From Buxus sempervirens (Eukaryota > Streptophyta > Magnoliopsida > Buxales > Buxaceae), in the NCBI GenBank assembly GCA_947561395.2, contig OX387190.1:27832858-27896857 (forward strand): 64,000 bases of DNA, read 5' to 3'. A program made the translations under genes and the position numbers. The notes under the pieces were generated by a model, which saw only the letters and a program-made list of their open reading frames with translations, did not search any database and had not been told where the DNA came from. Of the stretch, positions 1,867 through 57,884 are shown one piece after another (positions within the stretch are counted from its first letter, which is position 1; every line of letters begins with the position of its first letter).

Positions 1867-4227
<2,361 letters not shown>

Positions 4228-11450: not shown

Positions 11451-13105
11451 GCATACTTTGCTTAGCATAAAAATAGACCCTTGTCATTGGATTGAACTTC
11501 AACTCCAATAAAATAATGTAAACATGCAACCAAGATCCATCATAGAGAATTCCTGAGATAACCGATGAATAAGATTCTGAATCATAGAAGGATTATTTAA
11601 TTGTAACAACCATATCATCCACATATAAAAGCAGGTAGATTATGCCAGTGTTCGAGTGAAAAACAAACAAAGAAGAATCAGCCTTGCTAGAATGAAAACC
11701 AATTTGTAAGAGAAATTGGCTAAAACGTTGAAACCAAGCTCGTGGAGCTTGTTTCAAGCCATACAAAGCATGTTTCAAGCGACAAACGTGTGTGGGGAAA
11801 ACGGCATCAGTATAGCCAGACGGTTCCTCCATATAAACCTCCTCCGTCAAATTACCATGTAAGAATGCGTTTTTAACATCAAGTTGATGCAAGAACCATC
11901 CTGAAGTAGTAGCCAATGAAAGGATGAGGCGAACTGTAGCTGGGCGAACCACTGGACTAAAAGTGTCCTTAAAATTCAAACCATGAACTTGGGAAAAACC
12001 TTGAGCAACAAGACGTGCCTTGTGATGCTCAATAGAACCATCTGATTGTAGTTTGGTTTTGAAAATCCATTTGCAACCAACAACATTTTGATTCTTTGGA
12101 CGAGGTACAAGACTCCATGTATTGTTAAGCACTAATTTCTTCATCCATTGCGGATAACCACTCGGGGTGTTTAGCAGCTGACTTAAAACCCGTGGTTCTT
12201 TAATTGCAACTAGAGACTAAAAAATGGTGGAAGGTGTAAAATCAAATAACACATGATACGTTTTTGGTTTGAATATACCTGCTTTCCTTCTAGTAATCAT
12301 TGGATGAGTAGATGTTTACTGTACAAGGCTCAAGTGGAGGGACATCTGATTGAGGCAAATGAGAGACGTCCGATTCAAGGCATGAGATGTCATGATTAGT
12401 AATGTCACGCCCCAGAACCAGGTTTGCCTGTCCAAGGCATCCCCTATCCCATACGCATGAGATGCCTTGGAGAGGAAAACCTGGTTCTGGGGCGTGACAA
12501 GTAACTTCTGGAGACAAGTTGATTTCATGGGAAGAGATGTTAGGTTGAAGTCTCTCATAGGAAATGACATCAGGTGGAGTGACACTTGGAGGCAAGTTTG
12601 TTTCTTGAGAAGTAATGCATGGAATGCATAAACCAGGAGCACGTGAAGAAGTTGGAGAAGACTTGTTGGACTGATTTGGAACAATATCAAAGAAATCTAT
12701 AAATTGTACAAAATCATCAGTAGATGGTTCATTATTGATAGAAGTATCAACAAAGGGAAAATTTGTCTCATGAAATTGAACATGTCGTGAAATATAAACA
12801 TGATTTGTCTTACGATCTAAGCATAAAAAACCTTTGTGAATATGACTATATCCAATGAAAACACATGCAGCAGATCAGGGAGACAATTTGTGAGGAGTGT
12901 AATCACGCAAATGGAAAACAAAGACACCCAAAAGTACGAAGAGTAGTGTAAGAAGGTCACTTACCATAAAGAAGCTGATACAGGGTTCTACCATCAAGAG
13001 CTTGTGATGGGAGCTGGTTAATGAGATAACAGGCAGTGAAAAAAGCATCAACCCAATATTTAAGAGGGACAGAAGAATGAAACAAAAGAATTAATCCCAT
13101 TTCCG
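11451..13105 (-). mobile_element. Ty1/copia retrotransposon fragment (reverse transcriptase and integrase end)
   Basis: Reads on the minus strand. 12144 down to about 11455 shows a copia reverse transcriptase: WSLVPRPKNQNVVGCKWIFK, LDVKNAFLHG, the GLKQAPRAW region and the catalytic YVDD. 13100 down to about 12850 gives the integrase C-terminal part with similarity to YWVDAFFTACYLINQLPS. It is broken, with no LTRs recognised at either side. It lies within the remains of the second TPS copy and so postdates that duplication. A small palindromic element sits in it at 12403-12499. Confidence 0.85.
12403..12499. mobile_element. 97-bp palindromic element with 5-bp TSD
   Basis: Arms of about 40 bp: TGTCACGCCCCAGAACCAGG at the left and its complement at the right, loop near 12440-12458. 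Perfect 5-bp duplications AGTAA at 12398-12402 and 12500-12504. Ends are TG...CA. It is inside the copia fossil. The superfamily is uncertain. Confidence 0.75.
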
Positions 13106-14715: not shown

Positions 14716-17700
14716 ATGGCGGACGGCTTCTGGAATCGGCAGCAGCAGGTTTATCCTTCTGCGGGCATCTCCAAACGCCCTCGCTCGGAGTACGGTAGGC
14801 TTTTGCCTTTCCCTGCCCTTTACAATCTGAACCAAAGCTAATTCTGTACAGAACACTCTTGCTGTTGCCCCTTCTTCTCATTATTTTTCTTAATGATGTT
14901 TTGAGTTTTGATGAATAGTTCTTAATTTGTTGTTTTTATGCTGTTCCTTGTTTTCTTCGTCTTTTAAAATGTAGATTTTTCCTTTTTCGTGTATTTAATT
15001 TTTGAAATGAGTTCACATATTTGAGTTTAGTTAGGCTTTTATTATTTATTTATGTTTTTCTGCTGCACCCCAGAAAGCTTGAACACTTAGTTGGAATCTA
15101 ACATAATTTCTGGAAGTGGAAGAATGTTGCTAAAGGTTTACTTTGGAAGTTAGAGTTCGGGCAAATTTAATATAATTCAGTGCTTTGATTACAACATTCT
15201 TCTGAACGGAGCATTATATTGCAGCAACATTCATTTTCTTTTTCTCTTTTTAACAAGTGACAATGACGATAACAATAACGATGAAATGCCACTTACACTT
15301 ATTCGCTACATACATAGACACATACATGTTTTTTTTTTTTGGGTAAGAGAAAGAAGCATATATTCAAGATCATAAACTTTTTACATGACAACCTATTCGA
15401 TGCTTCTCAACCAACTGGAGTACCTCCCTATGCAATGAAAGTCCCTCAAAAAACCATCTACCATCTCTATGAGCTCTATTAGCTAATGCATCAGCAACCC
15501 TATTCCCTTCCTTAAATACATGTGTTGTTATCACTCTCTCAAAATTTTCCTTCAAAATGATATCTATTTCCTGGATCAACATTTTAACCTTCCACAGAAT
15601 ACTACACTCTTTGTTGATACCATTAAGAATAAGCAATGAATCTCCTTCTATCCAGATTGCCTCCCAACCAATTTCCTTCAAGAAATGTATACCTTCCCGA
15701 ACTGCTAACACCTCTACTATTGAAACGTTTTCTGCCTGCACTGGACTCATATAAGACAGTAAAGGTTTACCAGCAAAATCTCTAATAATTCCTCCAATAG
15801 TTGCATGATTATCCTTCATCAATACATTGAAGTTTAGTTTAATCCATCCAATTGGTGGTGCGGACCAACGAATGTCTCCTCTGTAGCTAACGTATTACTC
15901 TTTTTATGACCTGCAACAAACCATTTGTTCTCGTTGGTAGTATTATAATATTATTTAAAAGGCCTAGATGCTACACCAATTACACTTTTAGGAGATGCGG
16001 TAATTTTTTTTGAAGTGATGATTATTCTGAACTTTCCAAATGCTTCAAAAAATGAAAGCAATTTGTGGTGCTCTTCTCTTATCTGTTTCCAACACCTGCA
16101 AACCCACTCTTTAAGAATCAGAGTGACATACAGATATGCTACTGGGAGATATCCTAGATGGTGCTTGTCATCTTTGTGAGGCTGAGAAACATAGTTGTCT
16201 ACTTGTGTATTCCAAGTCTATTCATCCCAAGGAGATTTAAGGTCCTGCTGTGGTATGTTCTGTAAATGAACCTTTTTGGGTGTATTGTCAAAATGTGCAG
16301 TGAGGAAGGTGTATTTGATATGGTTTTACTAAGGGTACATGCCATCCAAATATGGGATTGGGCAGGATTAGTTAATTATGATATTACTAGTGCTGGAACT
16401 GTAAGTCTCATCCTTCATGGATCCTGCTTGTCAGTGAGGATGAGGAGTGGTGCTTTGATGCTGTGGTACTGTGTTTGTGTATAGGATTTACTTTGGTTCT
16501 TGGTGCTCAGGTTATGTGTACAGGGAGTTCTTCCACCTTTGGAGCAGAAAAACGAGCATGTGAAGTTAAAATGTCTTAAGCTCGATGCTAGAAGTGAGAG
16601 AGGGTAGTTTTGGTTCACTTCTTGCATCATCATGTGGGTGCTACTATATTTGAAAGTCAATATTCTACTTATGCAATAATGAACCAATCTGATTCATTTT
16701 TTTGTTATGGGCATGAAATAATTATATCATAAGAGAGAAAAGAATGCACAAACTATGTTTCTAATCATAAGATCAGCCACACCTAACAAAATAGCCACAT
16801 ACATCAAAACTAGAATCATCTCTTAAGACTATTGGAACCTTGCTTTAAGTAGGGAACTAAAAATGGCTGACTGGATGAGCTGGCCTCCTTACTTGGATGT
16901 CTCCATGATGTTTTCATTGATTCTGGTTCTTTGGATGGGTGCATTTTGTGCCCTTCCCTGTTTGGCCTTTTCTCTTGTAAATCCTTTTTATCTTGTTCTA
17001 GTGCAACTGTGGTGCTCCTCCTGCCCCTTCTGCTTTAATAGTCTGTGGAAATCTTGTTTCACCTACAATTAAAGCCTTTGTCTGGACAATCTTGTTATAA
17101 AAGATTGACACTGTTGATGGATTCATATGAGATAGAGGTCGTGCACTTTATTGTCCAATATGTGCTTTCTTTGTAAGTTTCATGGGGAATCCATTGATTA
17201 TTGTTCTTGCACTGCAAGGGAGCGAAGAGTCTATGGCTACACTTATTATCTGAAATTGGATTGGTTTGGTTCATGCTAGGGATTCCTGCTTCTTTGTTGG
17301 TACATATCCATGTGAATGGCCTAGGCAGTTGTGGTCAGATTTTATAGATCTCTCTTTCAAGAAATAATTTGGCAGATGTGGAGGGAGCAGAATAAGAGGA
17401 TCTTTGAGGGGCGAATTTCATCTGATATTATTGAGGCTATCAGGTCCTTAGTTGCATCTTGGGCCGGATGTCATTCAGCATTCCTAGGGATTAATTCCTT
17501 GGATGTCATCAGGGAATGGGGAAGTATTTGCTCTTCCTCTCCTAATTGGTGCTTGAAAATCCGGGAGCATCAAGAGTTGGGAAGTGTCTTCAGGGATTCC
17601 CTTGTAAACTTTATTTATGGCCTTCAATCTTTAAGTGAGTTAATTTTACCTTTACTTTTCTGGTAAAGAAAAAATTTCATTGTGAAGTACTGCAATTGTC

Positions 17701-23135: not shown

Positions 23136-25196
23136 TCACCAATAATCACCACAAGAACAGGCCCCATCCTCAAACCTGTGAAACCTATTGGCATCTCTCA
23201 CCACAAACACCTTCATCAATACTTTTGACAAACCCTTGATGAACTCATGGCAATCCCCACAAACCCTTAAATTCTTAAATACTCGAATTACACCCCCTTT
23301 ATCCAGCCCACCACAGACTAATGCCAAACCTATTGCCAACTTCTCACTGTGAACTCTCAAGCTCTCTTCCTTTGACTCTTCTTCCACATCATGCAATGCA
23401 AATCTTACCCCATAAGCATAGCCCATCTCTTCTTTCACCTTCCTCTCCATTTTCTTTAGTACTTCATGTATTTTCTCTGTAAGAGGGTGTGTATCATCTC
23501 CCCCATGGAAGAAGTGAATCTCCTTGTCGATTTCAATCCAGCTACAACCTCCCTCTTTCTTCAAGCCCTTCACCTTCATCTCCTCTCTCACTCTCTCACA
23601 CTCACTCCACTCACCAGCGTCTGCATAGATATTTGACATCATTACATAGTTCACTGGATCTTCTCCATCCAATCTTAGTATAATCTCTCCTACCTCTCTG
23701 CCCATTTCCAAGTTTCTATGTACTCTGCAAGCTCCTAGCAACGTCTGCCATATCCCAACATTTGGTTCAACTGGCATTTTTTCTATGATATCCTTGGCTG
23801 CTTCCAAATCTCCAGCTCGGCCAAGTAGATCAACCATGCAAGCATAATGCTCTACTTTTGGTTTGATCCTATGGTCATTTTTCATTCTTGAGAAATATTC
23901 ATGGCATTCCTCAACAAGGCCAGTGTGGCTACAGGCTGAGAGCACTGCCAAGTAGGTCACCTCATCCGGGTCTATATTCTCTGACTGCATTTCATTGAAC
24001 AAACGAACTGCATCCTTGCCATGACCATGCTTTCCATACCCAGTAATCATCACTGTCCAAGAAACTACGTTCCTTTCTGGCATTTCGCTGAAACGCCTTT
24101 CTGCTTCATCAGTTAGTCCACACTTGAGATACATATCCACAACTGAATTGGCCACCGATACATCCAATCCAGATGGGACTTTGACGGTGTATGAATGTAT
24201 TTGCCTCCCTTGCTCTACAAGAGCAAAATCAGCAAAGATACCCATCATACTAGAGAGAACAAACCCGTCAACCTGAATACCAGTGCCCCTGAATTTCCTA
24301 AACAATTCCATGGCCTCATCCAGGCTTCCTTCTTGAGCATAACCCACAATAATCGCATTCCATGAGATGGCATTCCTCTGTTCGATTTGATCGAACACCT
24401 TTCGTGCTTCAGCTAAGCGTCTACATTTAATATAAAGGTCAACTAGAGCACTTGCAATTATTGTCTGATTCTGATTCGGAATCATAAACCCTCTTGTGAT
24501 CAAGGAAGTATGGATTTGGATTGCTTGTCGAATTGCTCCAAGACCGGTACAAGCTTTAATTGTGCTTGCAAATGTGAACTCATCAGGAACTTCTCCGTAT
24601 TGCTGCATGCTCTGGAACATAAGCAGAGATTTAGAACCATTCCCTTCAAAGGTATATCCAGCAATCATTGCATTCCAAGTTATGAGATTCCTAATAGACA
24701 TTGCGTCAAACATCTGGGTTGCGTCCCCAATTCTCTTGCATTTTGAATACATATCGATGATTGAATTGCTAACAACTGGAACATATTCAAATCCTGTTTT
24801 CTTACAGAGACCATGGATCTGCATGCCATTCTCAGGGATTCCTAGAAAGCTGCAAGCTTTTAAGTTAATTGAGAATGTAAACTCGTTTGGCTTAACCTCC
24901 GAAGACCCCATTTGACAGAATAGCGATAGGGATGCCTCGGCGTTGCACTGCTGTAAGTTGGCACACATGAGAGCAGTCCACGAGACTACATTTCTTTCCG
25001 GCATTTTGTTGAACACCACAGAAGCCAGGTCTACTCTCCTGCATTTCCCATACATATCTATAAGATCATTGTTCATGATCAGATCAAATCCAAATCCCAT
25101 CTTTACTGAAGCTGCATGGACCTGCAATCCCTGATCCAGTAACAAATATTTCGAACAGTTCCTCAGGATTTTCCCAAATCTTTGCCGCTCAATCAT
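23136..25196 (-). CDS. PPR protein, PLS class with E and DYW domains (At3g15130-like)
   Basis: Intronless, 686 residues. PLS-type pentatricopeptide repeats run from about residue 20 to 510 (for example [37 protein letters not shown]). E motifs follow (about 510-590, [15 protein letters not shown]), then a full DYW deaminase with HSE at 616-618, CGDC at 646-649 and the terminal CSCGDYW. The zinc and catalytic residues of a cytidine deaminase are present, so it should edit C to U in organelle transcripts; the RNA site is unknown. The whole protein, including the first residues [12 protein letters not shown], aligns with my recollection of Arabidopsis At3g15130, which supports this start. No clear targeting peptide precedes the repeats. 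Its start codon is 8 bp from that of the divergent neighbour. Confidence 0.95.
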
Positions 25197-25204
25197 CCGG
25201 GGTA

Positions 25205-26839
25205 ATGAAGTTCACCACCTTGATTATCAGAGAATTGGAAGATCAATTCGTACCCACATTGCAAAACTGCGTCAATATAGCAGAATTGAGGAAGATCCAT
25301 TCCCATATCGTCAAATACTCCTTATCACAAAGCAATTTCCTCACGACAAAGATGATCGACATTTGTAATATCAATGGAGCCACAGATTATGCATATCTAC
25401 TCTTCCACCAGATAATTGAGCCAAATATCTTTTTGTACAACGCAATGATCAGAGCTTATACACATAACCACCTCTACAAACAGGCCCTATCTATTTACAA
25501 GCAAATATTAACATACCCACAAGCTAGAGATCCCATTTTTCCTGACAAATTCACTTTCCACTTTGTGGTTAAAGCCAGTGCAGGGCTCCTGTGTCTCAAT
25601 CTTGGCAAGCAGATTCATGGTCATGTATGCAAATGTGGGCCAAGTTCAAATTCTGGGATAGAAAACTCTCTTATAGATATGTACACAAAGTGTAATAATA
25701 TAAGTGATGCACTCAAAGTACTTGAAGCAATGACTGAGAAAGATGCAGTTTCATGGAACACTGTCATTTGTGGATATGCCAAACTGGGACAAATGAGAAG
25801 GGCAAGAGCTGTCTTTGATGCAATGCCTCACAAGACAATTGTCTCTTGGACTGCTTTGATTTCTGGTTATAATCGAATTGGCTGCTATGCTGATGCATTA
25901 AGCATTTTTCATCAGATGCATGGAATGGGAGTTAAACCTGACAAGATCAGCATTGTTTCCATCTTGCCAGCCTGCGCACAGATGGGAGCTCTGGAGCTGG
26001 GGAAATGGATCCACATTTTCTCTGAGAGAAATGGGCTTTTGCAGAAGACTTGTGTCTGCAATGCTATGATGGATATGTACTTGAAATGTGGAAGCATCGA
26101 TCAGGCATGGCAGTTGTTCAATCAAATGTCGAACAGAGATGTTATCTCTTGGAGTACAATGATTGGAGGACTTGCAAATCATGGTAAGGCTCATGAAGCT
26201 ATTGAACTGTTCTTGGAAATGCAGAGAACACATGTTAAACCAAATAGTGTCACCTTTCTTGGTCTATTATCTTCCTGCGCCCATGCTGGTTTTGTTGATG
26301 AGGGACTACGATATTTTGAATCCATGTGGAAGGAGTATCATATCAATCCAGGTGTTGAACATTATGGGTGTGTGGTTGATCTTCTGGGTCGCTCCGGATG
26401 CCTTGACCAGGCTGTTGAGTTCATTAAGAAGATGCCAATGGAGCCAGATTCTGCTATATGGGGATCCCTACTAAGTTCTAGCAGTACTTATGGTAATCTT
26501 GAGGTTGCTGTGATTGCAATGGAGCATCTTCTGGAGCTTGAACCAGATGTCTCAGGGAATTATGTCCTACTTTCCAATATTTATGCGAAGCTAGGAAAGT
26601 GGGAAGGTGTTTCAAGGATGAGGAAGCTCATGAAAAGTAAGAAAATGAAGAGAACCCCAGGATCTAGCTTGATTGAGGTTAACAATATGGTTCAAGAATT
26701 TGTATCTGGTGACGATTCAAAACCATTTTCACATGAGATCTATTTGATGCTAGAGCTGCTGGCTTTGCAGCAGAGCAGATCCAACATTGTAACTGCTGTA
26801 GGAACAGAAGAACTTGCACCTACTGAGTTTGACAACTGA
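25205..26839 (+). CDS. MEF21: PPR protein, PLS-E class, homologue of mitochondrial editing factor 21
   Basis: Intronless, 544 residues. PLS repeats cover about residues 40-430 ([64 protein letters not shown]), then E/E+ motifs ([39 protein letters not shown]). There is no DYW domain, as in Arabidopsis MEF21 (At2g20540), which supports C-to-U editing of a mitochondrial transcript and must recruit a deaminase in trans. The N-terminus [20 protein letters not shown] fits the family start. The match to MEF21 is from memory of that protein, particularly [18 protein letters not shown] and the C-terminal part. Confidence 0.93.
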
Positions 26840-35225: not shown

Positions 35226-35549
35226 TTTTCGAATGCCCTAATTTCAAATTCAGTTGTCCTGGGAGTCATAGCTAGATAGGACTTTTCTTCTTGAATCATT
35301 GCATCTCAATTGTTAGATTTATAATTATTCTATTCTTGCTTAGCTTGCATCCTCTCTGAGATGAAATAAAATAAAAGGGAGGTCAAACTCATCCTAGACA
35401 TTTGGTGTAGAGCTCATTCAAATTACTTTTTAATTTTTTTGTGAAAAAAAAAAAGAAAAGTTTTATTTGTACAAGGTGTCGGTTGTTTTTAAATCTCCTT
35501 TACTAAGACGAGTGGGGCGCCGCTAGCTGTTAAAAGGTAAATGCAAACG

Positions 35550-35558
35550 TTATATAAA
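35550..35558 (+). promoter_or_regulatory. TATA box of the extensin gene
   Basis: TTATATAAAG about 55 bp before the ATG at 35610. Transcription would begin near 35580, so the upstream ATG at 35541 lies before the message and is not the start. Confidence 0.7.
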
Positions 35559-35609
35559 GGCCTGATAAGGTTGCTTAAGAGCATAAGCAAAACCCATTCG
35601 GTAGTGAAG

Positions 35610-37223
35610 ATGGGAAAGCAAGGAGCAAGGGGGGTCTCAATGGCCTCACTTCTGAGCACTCTTGTAGTGGCTATGGTTTCTCTAAGCTTGCCATTAGAGT
35701 CTGCAGCAAACTACCCTTACCCATCACCACCACCTCCACTGACATATCCTCCTCCACATTACCTTTACTCATCACCACCCCCTCCTCCAGTTTACTCACC
35801 ACCACCACCTGAGAAACCATACCATCCTCCTACAACACCCCACTACAAGTCTCCACCACCACCTGAGAAACCATACCATCCTCCTACAACACCACACTAC
35901 AAGTCTCCACCACCACCGACACCCAAGGGGCCATACTATCCCCCTCCAACACCCTATAAGTACATGTCTCCACCACCACCACCACACCACGAGAAGCCAC
36001 ATCATCCTCATCACCCACCCTACAAGCACAAGTACCCACCACCACCCGTGAAGCCATACCATCCTCCTCCCACGCCCCACTACAACTACAAGTCTCCACC
36101 ACCACCACCCGTGAAGCCATACCATCCTCCTCCCACACCCCACTACCCACCACACGTGAAGCCATACCATCCTCCTCCCACACCCCACTACCCACCACCC
36201 GTGGTACCATACCATCCTCCTCCCACACCCCACTACCCACCACCCGTGGTGCCATACCATCCTCCTCCCACACCCCACTACCCACCACCCGTGAAGCCAT
36301 ACCATCCTCCTCCCACACCCCACTACAACTACAAGTCTCCACCACCACCACCCGTGAAGCCATACCATCCTCCTCCCACACCCCACTACCCACCACACGT
36401 GAAGCCATACCATCCTCCTCCCACACCCCACTACCCACCACCCGTGGTACCATACCATCCTCCTCCCACACCCCACTACCCACCACCCGTGAAGCCATAC
36501 CATCCTCCTCCCACACCCCACTACAACTACAAGTCTCCACCACCACCACCCGTGAAGCCATACCATCCTCCTCCCACACCCCACTACCCACCACACGTGA
36601 AGCCATACCATCCTCCTCCCACACCCCACTACCCACCACCCGTGGTGCCATACCATCCTCCTCCCACACCCCACTACCCACCACCCGTGAAGCCATACCA
36701 TCCTCCTCCCACACCCCACTACAACTACAAGTCTCCGCCACCACCACCCGTGAAGCCATACCATCCTCCTCCCACACCCCACTACCCACCACACGTGAAG
36801 CCATACCATCCTCCTCCCACACCCCACTACCCACCACCCGTGAAGCCATACCATCCTCCTCCCACACCCCACTACAACTACAAGTCTCCACCACCACCAC
36901 CCGTGAAGCCATACCATCCTCCTCCCACACCCCACTACCCACCACCCGTGGTGCCATACCATCCTCCTCCCACACCCCACTACCCACCACCCGTGAAGCC
37001 ATACCATCCTCCTCCCACACCCCACTACAACTACAAGTCTCCACCACCACCACCCGTGAAGCCATACCATCCTCCTCCCACACCCCACTACCCACCACCC
37101 GTGAAGCCATACCATCCTCCTCCCACACCCCACTACATCTACAAGTCTCCACCACCACCACCGGTGCACAAACCACCACCTGTCTACATCTATGCTTCAC
37201 CTCCTCCTCCTTATCATTACTAG
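35610..37223 (+). CDS. Extensin-like hydroxyproline-rich cell-wall glycoprotein
   Basis: 537 residues from the ATG at 35610. The N-terminus (MGKQGARG, then a hydrophobic SLLSTLVVAMVSLSLPL and ESAA) is a secretory signal peptide. The mature protein is Pro/His/Tyr/Lys-rich: SPPPP blocks, two YHPPTTPHYKSPPPPEKP units, then 22 copies of V(K/V)PYHPPPTPHY spaced by PPP, PPH or NYKSPPPPP, ending VYIYASPPPPYHY. SPPPP is the arabinosylated Ser-Hyp motif, and YNY, YIY and YHY can form isodityrosine cross-links, so it is expected in the cell-wall network. The DNA repeat is 36-63 bp and nearly identical between units, which suggests recent expansion. Repeat number may be misassembled. A plausible intron lies in the 3' UTR. 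Confidence 0.93.
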   Translation: MGKQGARGVSMASLLSTLVVAMVSLSLPLESAANYPYPSPPPPLTYPPPHYLYSSPPPPPVYSPPPPEKPYHPPTTPHYKSPPPPEKPYHPPTTPHYKSPPPPTPKGPYYPPPTPYKYMSPPPPPHHEKPHHPHHPPYKHKYPPPPVKPYHPPPTPHYNYKSPPPPPVKPYHPPPTPHYPPHVKPYHPPPTPHYPPPVVPYHPPPTPHYPPPVVPYHPPPTPHYPPPVKPYHPPPTPHYNYKSPPPPPVKPYHPPPTPHYPPHVKPYHPPPTPHYPPPVVPYHPPPTPHYPPPVKPYHPPPTPHYNYKSPPPPPVKPYHPPPTPHYPPHVKPYHPPPTPHYPPPVVPYHPPPTPHYPPPVKPYHPPPTPHYNYKSPPPPPVKPYHPPPTPHYPPHVKPYHPPPTPHYPPPVKPYHPPPTPHYNYKSPPPPPVKPYHPPPTPHYPPPVVPYHPPPTPHYPPPVKPYHPPPTPHYNYKSPPPPPVKPYHPPPTPHYPPPVKPYHPPPTPHYIYKSPPPPPVHKPPPVYIYASPPPPYHY

Positions 37224-56189: not shown

Positions 56190-57866
56190 TCATGACTGAT
56201 GTCTAGATGGGCCACTTGCACATGCAGAGGCCTGCAGTGGAACAGAATGAGATTGAAAAGAAGCATCAGAAAATGTTCTAGATGCCTTAGAACAGTTCAG
56301 GGGTATGCCAGTAGCTGAAGCCTGACTTTCAAGTGGGCAATCTTCAGACAGAAATGTGGATTTACAATTTGAAATTGCTTTCAAGCTTGAGTGCCTCTTG
56401 CTATACTTTCTTGAATACCGGTCAGGCTCATCACTGCATCTTTTACGCTGCAGTGCTCGATAATCTCCATCAGATGGCACTCTACATGATGTTCTGTTGT
56501 TGCTTGATGAAAATTTTTGCCCCAGTTCATCTTGTTTCTCACAAGAATGAGATCCAGAATCCATACTATTGTCATCACCACTTGAAAGAACTAACTTATT
56601 TGAACAGCTTCCCTCTTCTTCCTTCACCGCCAATTCGACTTTATCATCAAAGTTTCCAACATCACAGGCTTCTAAACATCTTCCCACTTTCCTCATTTTA
56701 TTATCCTCCCAGGTTTCCTTAAATTTCTCAACTTGCAGGCACACCCTTCTGTCCAGAACCTCTTTATGCTCCACATCTTTCTTATCAATGGAAGAATCAT
56801 GATCCGACATCCCAATGCGAATTGACGGTTCTGAAATAGTTCTATCGGGGTTTTCAACTAGCTTATTATCAGTACAAATTTCTAGATTCCCACAGACACT
56901 GGGATTCCCAGGATCAGATTCCCTGAACAACAAATTGCCATTACAGTGTCTTGTTTCCATGGCAACCAAATAATCTGAGTTCATTGAACAAGAGTTCCTG
57001 GATATCCTTGGTGAGCTGTTAATAGCACGATGCAATTTAATTGCCAATTTTGCATCATCAACATATGAGTCAGTATTCACTGGACGATCCATCACTCCAG
57101 TCTCCTCTCTTGCAACAACTGCAGCCAAATCCAATGCATTCTTAGCTCGTTCAGCAGCCGTTCTAGCAGCCACAGCTTTTCTCAAGGCCTTCTCTCTAGC
57201 CCTAGCCGCAGCAGCAATTTTCTTCTCCACAACTAAATTTGCATCCTTCACCACATCCTCCAATGACTGGGAGCAGCTCCTGACGCCTGAAACCCTGGAA
57301 TTCCCCATTGAACAAGTTTCTGACCCAACCTTGTCATCCCTGTAATGATTTCTATTCTTACAAAACCCGTTGGAATTCGCTAGTGACTTGGGAACCCAAC
57401 AATCAACACAAGTGAATACACCGGAGCTCGACACCGAATAAGACCAAGGAGCAAACCCCTGATACTTCACAATACAACTTCTGTGAACTCGGCGCTCACA
57501 GTCGCTACAATCAACGCAATTATCCGATACTTCCGCGAAACAGTAGGAGCAAATTTCAGAGGATTTGACACCATTGAAGCATTTCTTACAAAGAAGAACA
57601 ACACGCCACTCGCTATCCAGGGTCTGAAGCTTATCTCTACCTCTGCTGCTCATTCGAGAGCCACATCCGTGGCAATCACAGAAATTCGGTAACTCGCTCG
57701 CTTTCTTACGCAATCGAACCGAAGAAGCAGAAGAAGCCGACTCTGGAGACGCCCATCCGTTATGCTTCAAACCGGCGAGAATTCTCTTTCGTGGAGGGAG
57801 AGAAGAACGAGCAGCAGCAGAGCCTGACCCGCTGGCTCCTTCTCCTTCTTCTCTCTCTTCCGCCAT
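56190..57866 (-). CDS. Cys-rich zinc-finger-like nuclear protein of unknown function
   Basis: A single 558-codon frame. The N-terminus is acidic and Ser-rich, then LPPRKRILAGLKHNGW (23-38) and a basic RLRKK that may help nuclear import. A Cys-rich region covers 63-156: C63, C65, C68, C93, C96, C106, C109, C117, C120, C123, H128, C131, C153 and C156, with spacing like a PHD/FYVE-type treble-clef finger (CSDCERRVHRSC). A charged Ala-rich helix follows (213-252, KKIAAAARAREKALRKAVAA), probably a coiled coil; the rest is polar and disordered. I recognise it as a plant-conserved hypothetical family but know no function. Chromatin or protein binding is a guess. The ATG is followed by a long conserved-looking frame, and telo-boxes lie just upstream. 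The stop comes 12 bp before a splice-donor-like site, so the last exon could be annotated differently. Confidence 0.82.
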   Translation of the reverse strand: MAEEREEGEGASGSGSAAARSSLPPRKRILAGLKHNGWASPESASSASSVRLRKKASELPNFCDCHGCGSRMSSRGRDKLQTLDSEWRVVLLCKKCFNGVKSSEICSYCFAEVSDNCVDCSDCERRVHRSCIVKYQGFAPWSYSVSSSGVFTCVDCWVPKSLANSNGFCKNRNHYRDDKVGSETCSMGNSRVSGVRSCSQSLEDVVKDANLVVEKKIAAAARAREKALRKAVAARTAAERAKNALDLAAVVAREETGVMDRPVNTDSYVDDAKLAIKLHRAINSSPRISRNSCSMNSDYLVAMETRHCNGNLLFRESDPGNPSVCGNLEICTDNKLVENPDRTISEPSIRIGMSDHDSSIDKKDVEHKEVLDRRVCLQVEKFKETWEDNKMRKVGRCLEACDVGNFDDKVELAVKEEEGSCSNKLVLSSGDDNSMDSGSHSCEKQDELGQKFSSSNNRTSCRVPSDGDYRALQRKRCSDEPDRYSRKYSKRHSSLKAISNCKSTFLSEDCPLESQASATGIPLNCSKASRTFSDASFQSHSVPLQASACASGPSRHQS

Positions 57867-57884
57867 GTGGCCTTGCAGAGAGAA

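Follow-up and report, generated by a model that had tools for sequence, protein, structure and literature searches.

Two editing-type PPR genes of Buxus sempervirens lie head to head with 8 bp between their start codons

The window is the whole stretch of DNA that we analysed: 64 kb from contig C12 (C12:27832858-27896857) of a genome of 676.5 Mb in 247 contigs, which we also searched. In the window, two PPR frames lie on opposite strands with their 5' ends facing each other, and 8 bp separate their ATGs (from the listing of open reading frames and from direct reading). The ATG of the minus-strand gene is at 25196-25194 and the ATG of the plus-strand gene is at 25205-25207. The initial annotation had placed the start of the DYW gene at 25196 (minus strand) and the start of the MEF21-like gene at 25205 (plus strand), with a gap of 8 bp, and both frames are listed exactly so. 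The parts of the pair are:

23136-25196, minus strand: DYW-type PPR gene, an intact single frame of 686 amino acids whose C-terminus is GDYW (open reading frame, Pfam, and phmmer)
25197-25204, no strand: the spacer, CCGGGGTA (read directly; found once in the genome)
25205-26839, plus strand: E-type PPR gene, MEF21-like, an intact single frame of 544 amino acids (open reading frame, Pfam, and PPR code)

Bidirectional gene pairs are adjacent, on opposite strands, with 5' ends facing and no more than 1000 bp apart; this pair fits that description if distances are taken between ATGs, while the published definition uses TSSs. Our search of the genome found this junction once and did not find a second copy, as from a genome duplication. 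Among the matches listed from open-licence papers, we did not find a published account of this PPR pair.

The minus-strand protein contains PPR repeats (PF13041/PF01535), an E motif (E_motif, PF20431), and a DYW deaminase domain (DYW_deaminase, PF14432), all above Pfam's cut-offs. The deaminase match covers the entire model (1-93 of 93) and spans residues 592-686. Similarly, phmmer matched this protein to the DYW domains of solved PPR proteins and to a synthetic PPR-DYW protein. PPR repeats, an E motif, and a complete C-terminal deaminase domain that ends in DYW are the hallmarks of the DYW subgroup of PLS-class PPR proteins, to which we assign it; the gene differs from others of that subgroup in having nearly no spacer before its start codon. 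When we scanned parts of cox3 and nad3 for its target, using repeats that were parsed by hand, there was no clear winner.

The plus-strand protein contains PPR repeats (PF01535/PF13041) and an E motif (PF20431) above Pfam's cut-offs, and it has no match to DYW_deaminase (PF14432) up to E = 0.01. This is the composition of the E/E+ subgroup of PLS-class PPR proteins, and the models that we used do not separate E from E+. It is also the composition of MEF21 (AT2G20540), an E-type mitochondrial editing factor with PPR repeats and an E motif but no DYW domain. Beyond the E motif, the plus-strand protein has another 53 residues; MEF21, too, is drawn with an extension past E/E+ (in an excerpt of PMC3982070).

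As far as the genome was searched, both genes are single copy. No close paralogue of either was found: among the matches listed, the next best match in the genome is at 40% for the minus-strand protein and at 43% for the plus-strand protein. We also looked for stray plant relatives of the minus-strand protein among viral contigs and of the plus-strand protein in a collection of genome contigs, and found none in either. The two partners are just 32.7% identical to each other, and among 50 candidates (the 49 other PPR ORFs that we compared, plus the partner) they rank 48th and 39th in one another's lists of matches, which rules out an origin by recent inverted duplication.

To see how unusual this arrangement is, we considered the other PPR genes of this genome. 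Our counts of PPR loci come from merged lists of matches and are lower bounds: at least 216 loci were typed first, and at least 238 after 22 rows were added (21 short or broken matches and one full-length locus, C4:5688340-5689380). With the at least 216 loci, 11 pairs of neighbours were within 20 kb of each other, of which 3 were head to head, 6 were tandem, and 2 were tail to tail. With the at least 238 loci, the corresponding numbers were 3, 11, and 2. The ATG-to-ATG gaps of the three head-to-head pairs are 8 bp, 284 bp (C21), and 479 bp (C4), and in none of the three are the partners mutual best matches. The pair at C4:4601500-4607900 is of the DYW type, with its 479 bp measured between the first ATGs, and so is the pair at C21:6998000-7004900, whose minus-strand gene does not have the usual DYW ending. 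We also noticed that two of the 216 loci, on the small contigs C44 (17083-19098) and C88 (16311-18326), repeat the DYW gene at C22:21647275-21649290 with the same score; these are perhaps assembly duplicates.

We then asked how often a PPR gene has a divergent ORF of at least 150 codons just upstream. Our baseline comprised the best matches of both proteins, 18 loci from a shuffled list, and the two other head-to-head pairs, which were chosen as such. Of the other PPR ORFs, 47 had 250 bp of flank or more, and none of these had such an ORF within 250 bp (neighbours that are split by introns would be missed). Within 1000 bp, 6 of the 40 other PPR ORFs with 1000 bp of flank had one, and 4 of these 6 are the members of the C4 and C21 pairs, which were included because they are head to head. 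Head-to-head PPR pairs thus occur repeatedly in this genome, with 8 bp the most extreme gap that we saw.

Head-to-head genes are also described in Arabidopsis, where 2471 such pairs were counted and the 5' ends overlap in 67 (excerpt of PMC2648788). These pairs are adjacent genes on opposite strands with starts at most 1000 bp apart, and one of them includes a PPR gene, AT3G11460, with a spacer of 773 bp (same source). As in the Buxus pair, overlap of the leaders is expected. The Buxus pair differs in that its 8 bp are counted from start codon to start codon and not just between TSSs, and in that both genes are editing-type PPR genes. A second comparison is with cis-natural antisense pairs, of which 41 of 1057 in Arabidopsis are divergent (excerpt of PMC2262095). 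Complementary 5' ends are expected for those and for the Buxus pair, although here the overlap and any small RNAs are inferred only. Given 67 of 2471 and 41 of 1057 cases in Arabidopsis, overlap between divergent 5' ends is known but rare. The layout that we describe is real, rare, and of a known type: it is an extreme case of a head-to-head pair with expected 5' overlap.

At3g15130 is the putative nearest Arabidopsis match of the minus-strand DYW gene. In an excerpt of one open-licence paper, At3g15130 is a table entry without a function. The initial annotation stated that the Arabidopsis homologues of the two genes are on different chromosomes. For the DYW gene, this relies on the putative match to At3g15130. 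For the other gene it is supported, as MEF21 is AT2G20540, which edits mitochondrial cox3 (PMC4730287, in part). Another paper labels At5g56310 as MEF21 (PMC5136568), which conflicts with this identification; we followed PMC4730287. The site that MEF21 edits is cox3-257, which changes Ser to Phe at residue 86 (excerpt of PMC5877523), and a published prediction from the PPR code places this site first for MEF21 (excerpt of PMC7076377).

The PPR code of the plus-strand protein fits the bases upstream of cox3-257. For this comparison, we parsed the repeats by hand and used a simple PPR code table. The bases at -11 (U), -10 (Y), -9 (G), -7 (U), and -6 (A) fit, and there is a misfit at -13, which is C where the code prefers U. 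Across the parts of cox3 and nad3 that we scored, cox3-257 ranks 2nd of 507 C/T positions. With the full code score, the position above it is a T in nad3 (position 143, counting from 0, of C117:38270-38640). Just 0.19% of the 32991 C/T positions in the window score as high as cox3-257. Judging from its predicted specificity, the plus-strand protein appears to fit MEF21 and is a putative orthologue.

In contrast to Arabidopsis MEF21, the plus-strand gene has a DYW gene as its head-to-head partner, and its expected site is already T. In all 13 copies of cox3 that were matched (with at most 2 mismatches), position 257 is T, and our search of the genome for copies with C at this position gave 0 matches. 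So, there is no editable C at cox3-257 in these copies, which concerns the target and not the plus-strand protein. A 14th COX3 match is a broken fragment on C12 and is not among the 13 copies that were read. The 13 copies are likely mitochondrial; they sit outside of the chromosome-size contigs (for example, C126 has 22,500 bases and C240 has at least 445 kb). In the copy that we read (C126:3630-4230), codon 86 is TTT (Phe), and positions 311 and 314 are also T; both are edited in Arabidopsis (excerpts of PMC7076377 and of another paper). Over the roughly 585 bases that we read from its ATG, cox3 looks pre-edited. By comparison, the nad3 frame (C117:38270-38640) has many Ser and Pro codons. 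Such codons are typical of unedited mitochondrial genes, and editing would presumably convert them to Phe and Leu. Because nad3 keeps these codons, the loss in cox3 is not general; nad3 appears still to require editing, and editing as such is probably still needed. The plus-strand gene may have lost its known Arabidopsis target. That cox3-257 is already T weakens the idea of two editing factors that are needed together.

Whether the 8 bp are also a gap between transcripts depends on the start codons. Upstream of each ATG, the frame is closed as follows:

25212-25214, minus strand: in-frame TGA upstream of the minus-strand ATG; it begins 18 nt upstream, with no AG between
25076-25078, plus strand: in-frame TGA upstream of the plus-strand ATG; it is followed by 126 nt of open frame

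If one or both genes had a missed upstream exon (for a 5' UTR or a transit peptide), then the promoters would be farther away, and the 8 bp would not separate the transcripts. We consider this to be unlikely. In the minus-strand gene, no upstream exon can extend the frame if the ATG is kept, as the TGA is just 18 nt upstream and there is no AG before the ATG. The plus-strand frame, which is open for 126 nt and contains five AGs (at -124, -95, -67, -48, and -40), could accommodate an upstream coding exon. A 5' UTR intron is possible in either gene. A distant exon would need to be placed within or past the partner gene.

The paralogues also bear on this. We compared each protein to the 49 other PPR ORFs and its partner, and for each of the two proteins, 19 of these 50 had matches that begin at residue 15 or earlier. 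The earliest (local) alignments reach back to residue 2 in the DYW protein and to residue 1 in the E protein, so starts that are well inside the present frames are unlikely. The claim of the initial annotation that both starts fit the N-termini of the family is plausible on this evidence. Among the paralogues that align near the start, 18 of 19 (DYW) and 15 of 19 (E) have more than 4 additional residues at their N-termini, so a first exon may have been missed. Short starts do occur, as 1 of 19 (DYW) and 4 of 19 (E) have 4 or fewer additional residues. Part of the additional sequence in the paralogues would be further repeats or targeting sequence.

If the start codons are as given, then what lies just upstream of each gene is its neighbour's coding sequence. 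We looked there for upstream ATGs and for TATA-like elements (coordinates of the uORFs were worked out from the offsets):

25227-25259, minus strand: nearest upstream ATG of the minus-strand gene (offset -63), opening a uORF of 10 codons
25116-25142, plus strand: nearest upstream ATG of the plus-strand gene (offset -89), opening a uORF of 8 codons
25274-25280, minus strand: TATA-like CTATATT for the minus-strand gene, within the coding sequence of the plus-strand gene (a fraction 0.558 of shuffles had as many)
25058-25063, plus strand: TATA-like CTATAA for the plus-strand gene, antisense of the LIDMY codons of the minus-strand gene (a fraction 0.4835 of shuffles had as many)

Given the upstream ATGs at -63 and -89, leaders that are free of upstream ATGs would be at most 60 nt (minus-strand gene) and at most 86 nt (plus-strand gene). 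Each leader would be antisense to the coding sequence of the partner, unless there is an upstream intron. The leaders would overlap if their combined length exceeds 8 nt, and the overlap would be that length minus 8 nt. The initial annotation had proposed that the leader and core promoter of each gene must be within the coding sequence of the other, or else that the mRNAs are nearly leaderless; barring a spliced upstream exon, this follows from the geometry.

The TATA-like elements do not stand out. Each 160-base stretch has one match, as compared to averages of 0.84 and 0.70 in shuffled sequences, so in neither stretch is there a TATA-like signal beyond chance. The CTATAA is the antisense of conserved LIDMY codons in the first S repeat, and such antisense TATA-like boxes may be common near the starts of PLS-type PPR genes. 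As for other promoter-like elements, the 300-base flanks contain a few pyrimidine runs, one CCAAT, and one GGGCC (raw counts). Folding of the junction gave no sign of RNA structure (z = 0.12), and no Rfam families were found in the 64-kb window at gathering scores.

We propose that these are two unrelated, intact, single-frame PPR genes that came to adjoin each other by chance and whose promoters are in one another's 5' coding DNA (with a probability of roughly 0.6). In each gene, the beginning of the coding sequence (tens to hundreds of bases) would serve, on the other strand, as the leader and core promoter of the partner. Both genes would be transcribed, and if upstream ATGs are avoided, their leaders would be short (within the limits given above). 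The messages would have complementary 5' ends. The most likely origin is chance juxtaposition or deletion of a spacer in a mobile gene family, and not selection for joint control. PPR genes are often out of synteny and have been called "nomadic," with examples that are largely restorer-related (excerpt of PMC1892557), so chance juxtaposition or loss of a spacer is the simplest origin. Some points count against our proposal: the TATA-like elements are no more common than in shuffles; the plus-strand frame could accept an upstream coding exon and either gene might have a 5' UTR intron; and most of the alignable paralogues have additional N-terminal residues.

A bidirectional promoter that is under selection is possible but doubtful, to about the same degree as a missed exon. 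In this scenario, a common regulatory stretch at the junction drives both genes, and the gene order is kept by selection. No other PPR gene whose flanks we examined has a gap as small as these 8 bp, and according to an Arabidopsis study, coordinate regulation is more likely for genes that lie head to head (excerpt of PMC2648788). For these two genes, their closeness is the sole positive evidence. The TATA-like signal is not above chance, the junction lacks RNA structure, and because the known target of the plus-strand gene is gone, a joint need for the two factors is doubtful. More broadly, the two wider head-to-head PPR pairs, the chance-level TATA counts, and the T at cox3-257 all argue against a special functional pairing.

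It is somewhat less likely that the plus-strand gene is a leftover. Once cox3-257 was fixed as T in the mitochondrial DNA, selection on the gene would have been relaxed, and it would no longer need a private promoter. This idea is compatible with the chance juxtaposition that we propose, and it addresses why the layout is tolerated. It is consistent with the state of cox3, and in Arabidopsis, MEF21 is not essential for growth (excerpt of PMC5877523). But the plus-strand frame is intact across 544 codons, with its repeats and E motif present, and the code of its protein still fits cox3-257; it may also have other targets.

More speculatively, the 5' coding sequences might double as mutual promoters and leaders, a duplex between the 5' ends of the mRNAs might tie their levels together, and the MEF21-like gene might be kept as its neighbour's promoter or for another target; we think that this combination is improbable.

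This locus offers a clean natural setting for the question of whether coding sequence in plants can provide a divergent neighbour with its core promoter, because there is no spacer where a promoter could hide. The coding DNA of the plus-strand gene may be constrained by the promoter of its neighbour and not only by its own function. The locus is also a test case for the fate of an editing factor once its target C is replaced by T, as the factor is still intact.

The window contains other frames as well. An open frame at 56193-57884 (minus strand) has 564 codons and no match in Pfam up to E = 0.001. Another at 35541-37220 (plus strand) has 560 codons, and its product, with 247 Pro, 72 Tyr, and repeats such as PPPVKPYHPPPTPHY, is extensin-like by its look; Pfam again gave no match up to E = 0.001. 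At 2826-3275 (plus strand) there is part of a terpene synthase frame. There are retrotransposon-type fragments (RVT_2 and SH3-like) at 11596-12874 (minus strand) and a fragment that is similar to reverse transcriptases (RVT_3) at 15373-15894 (minus strand).
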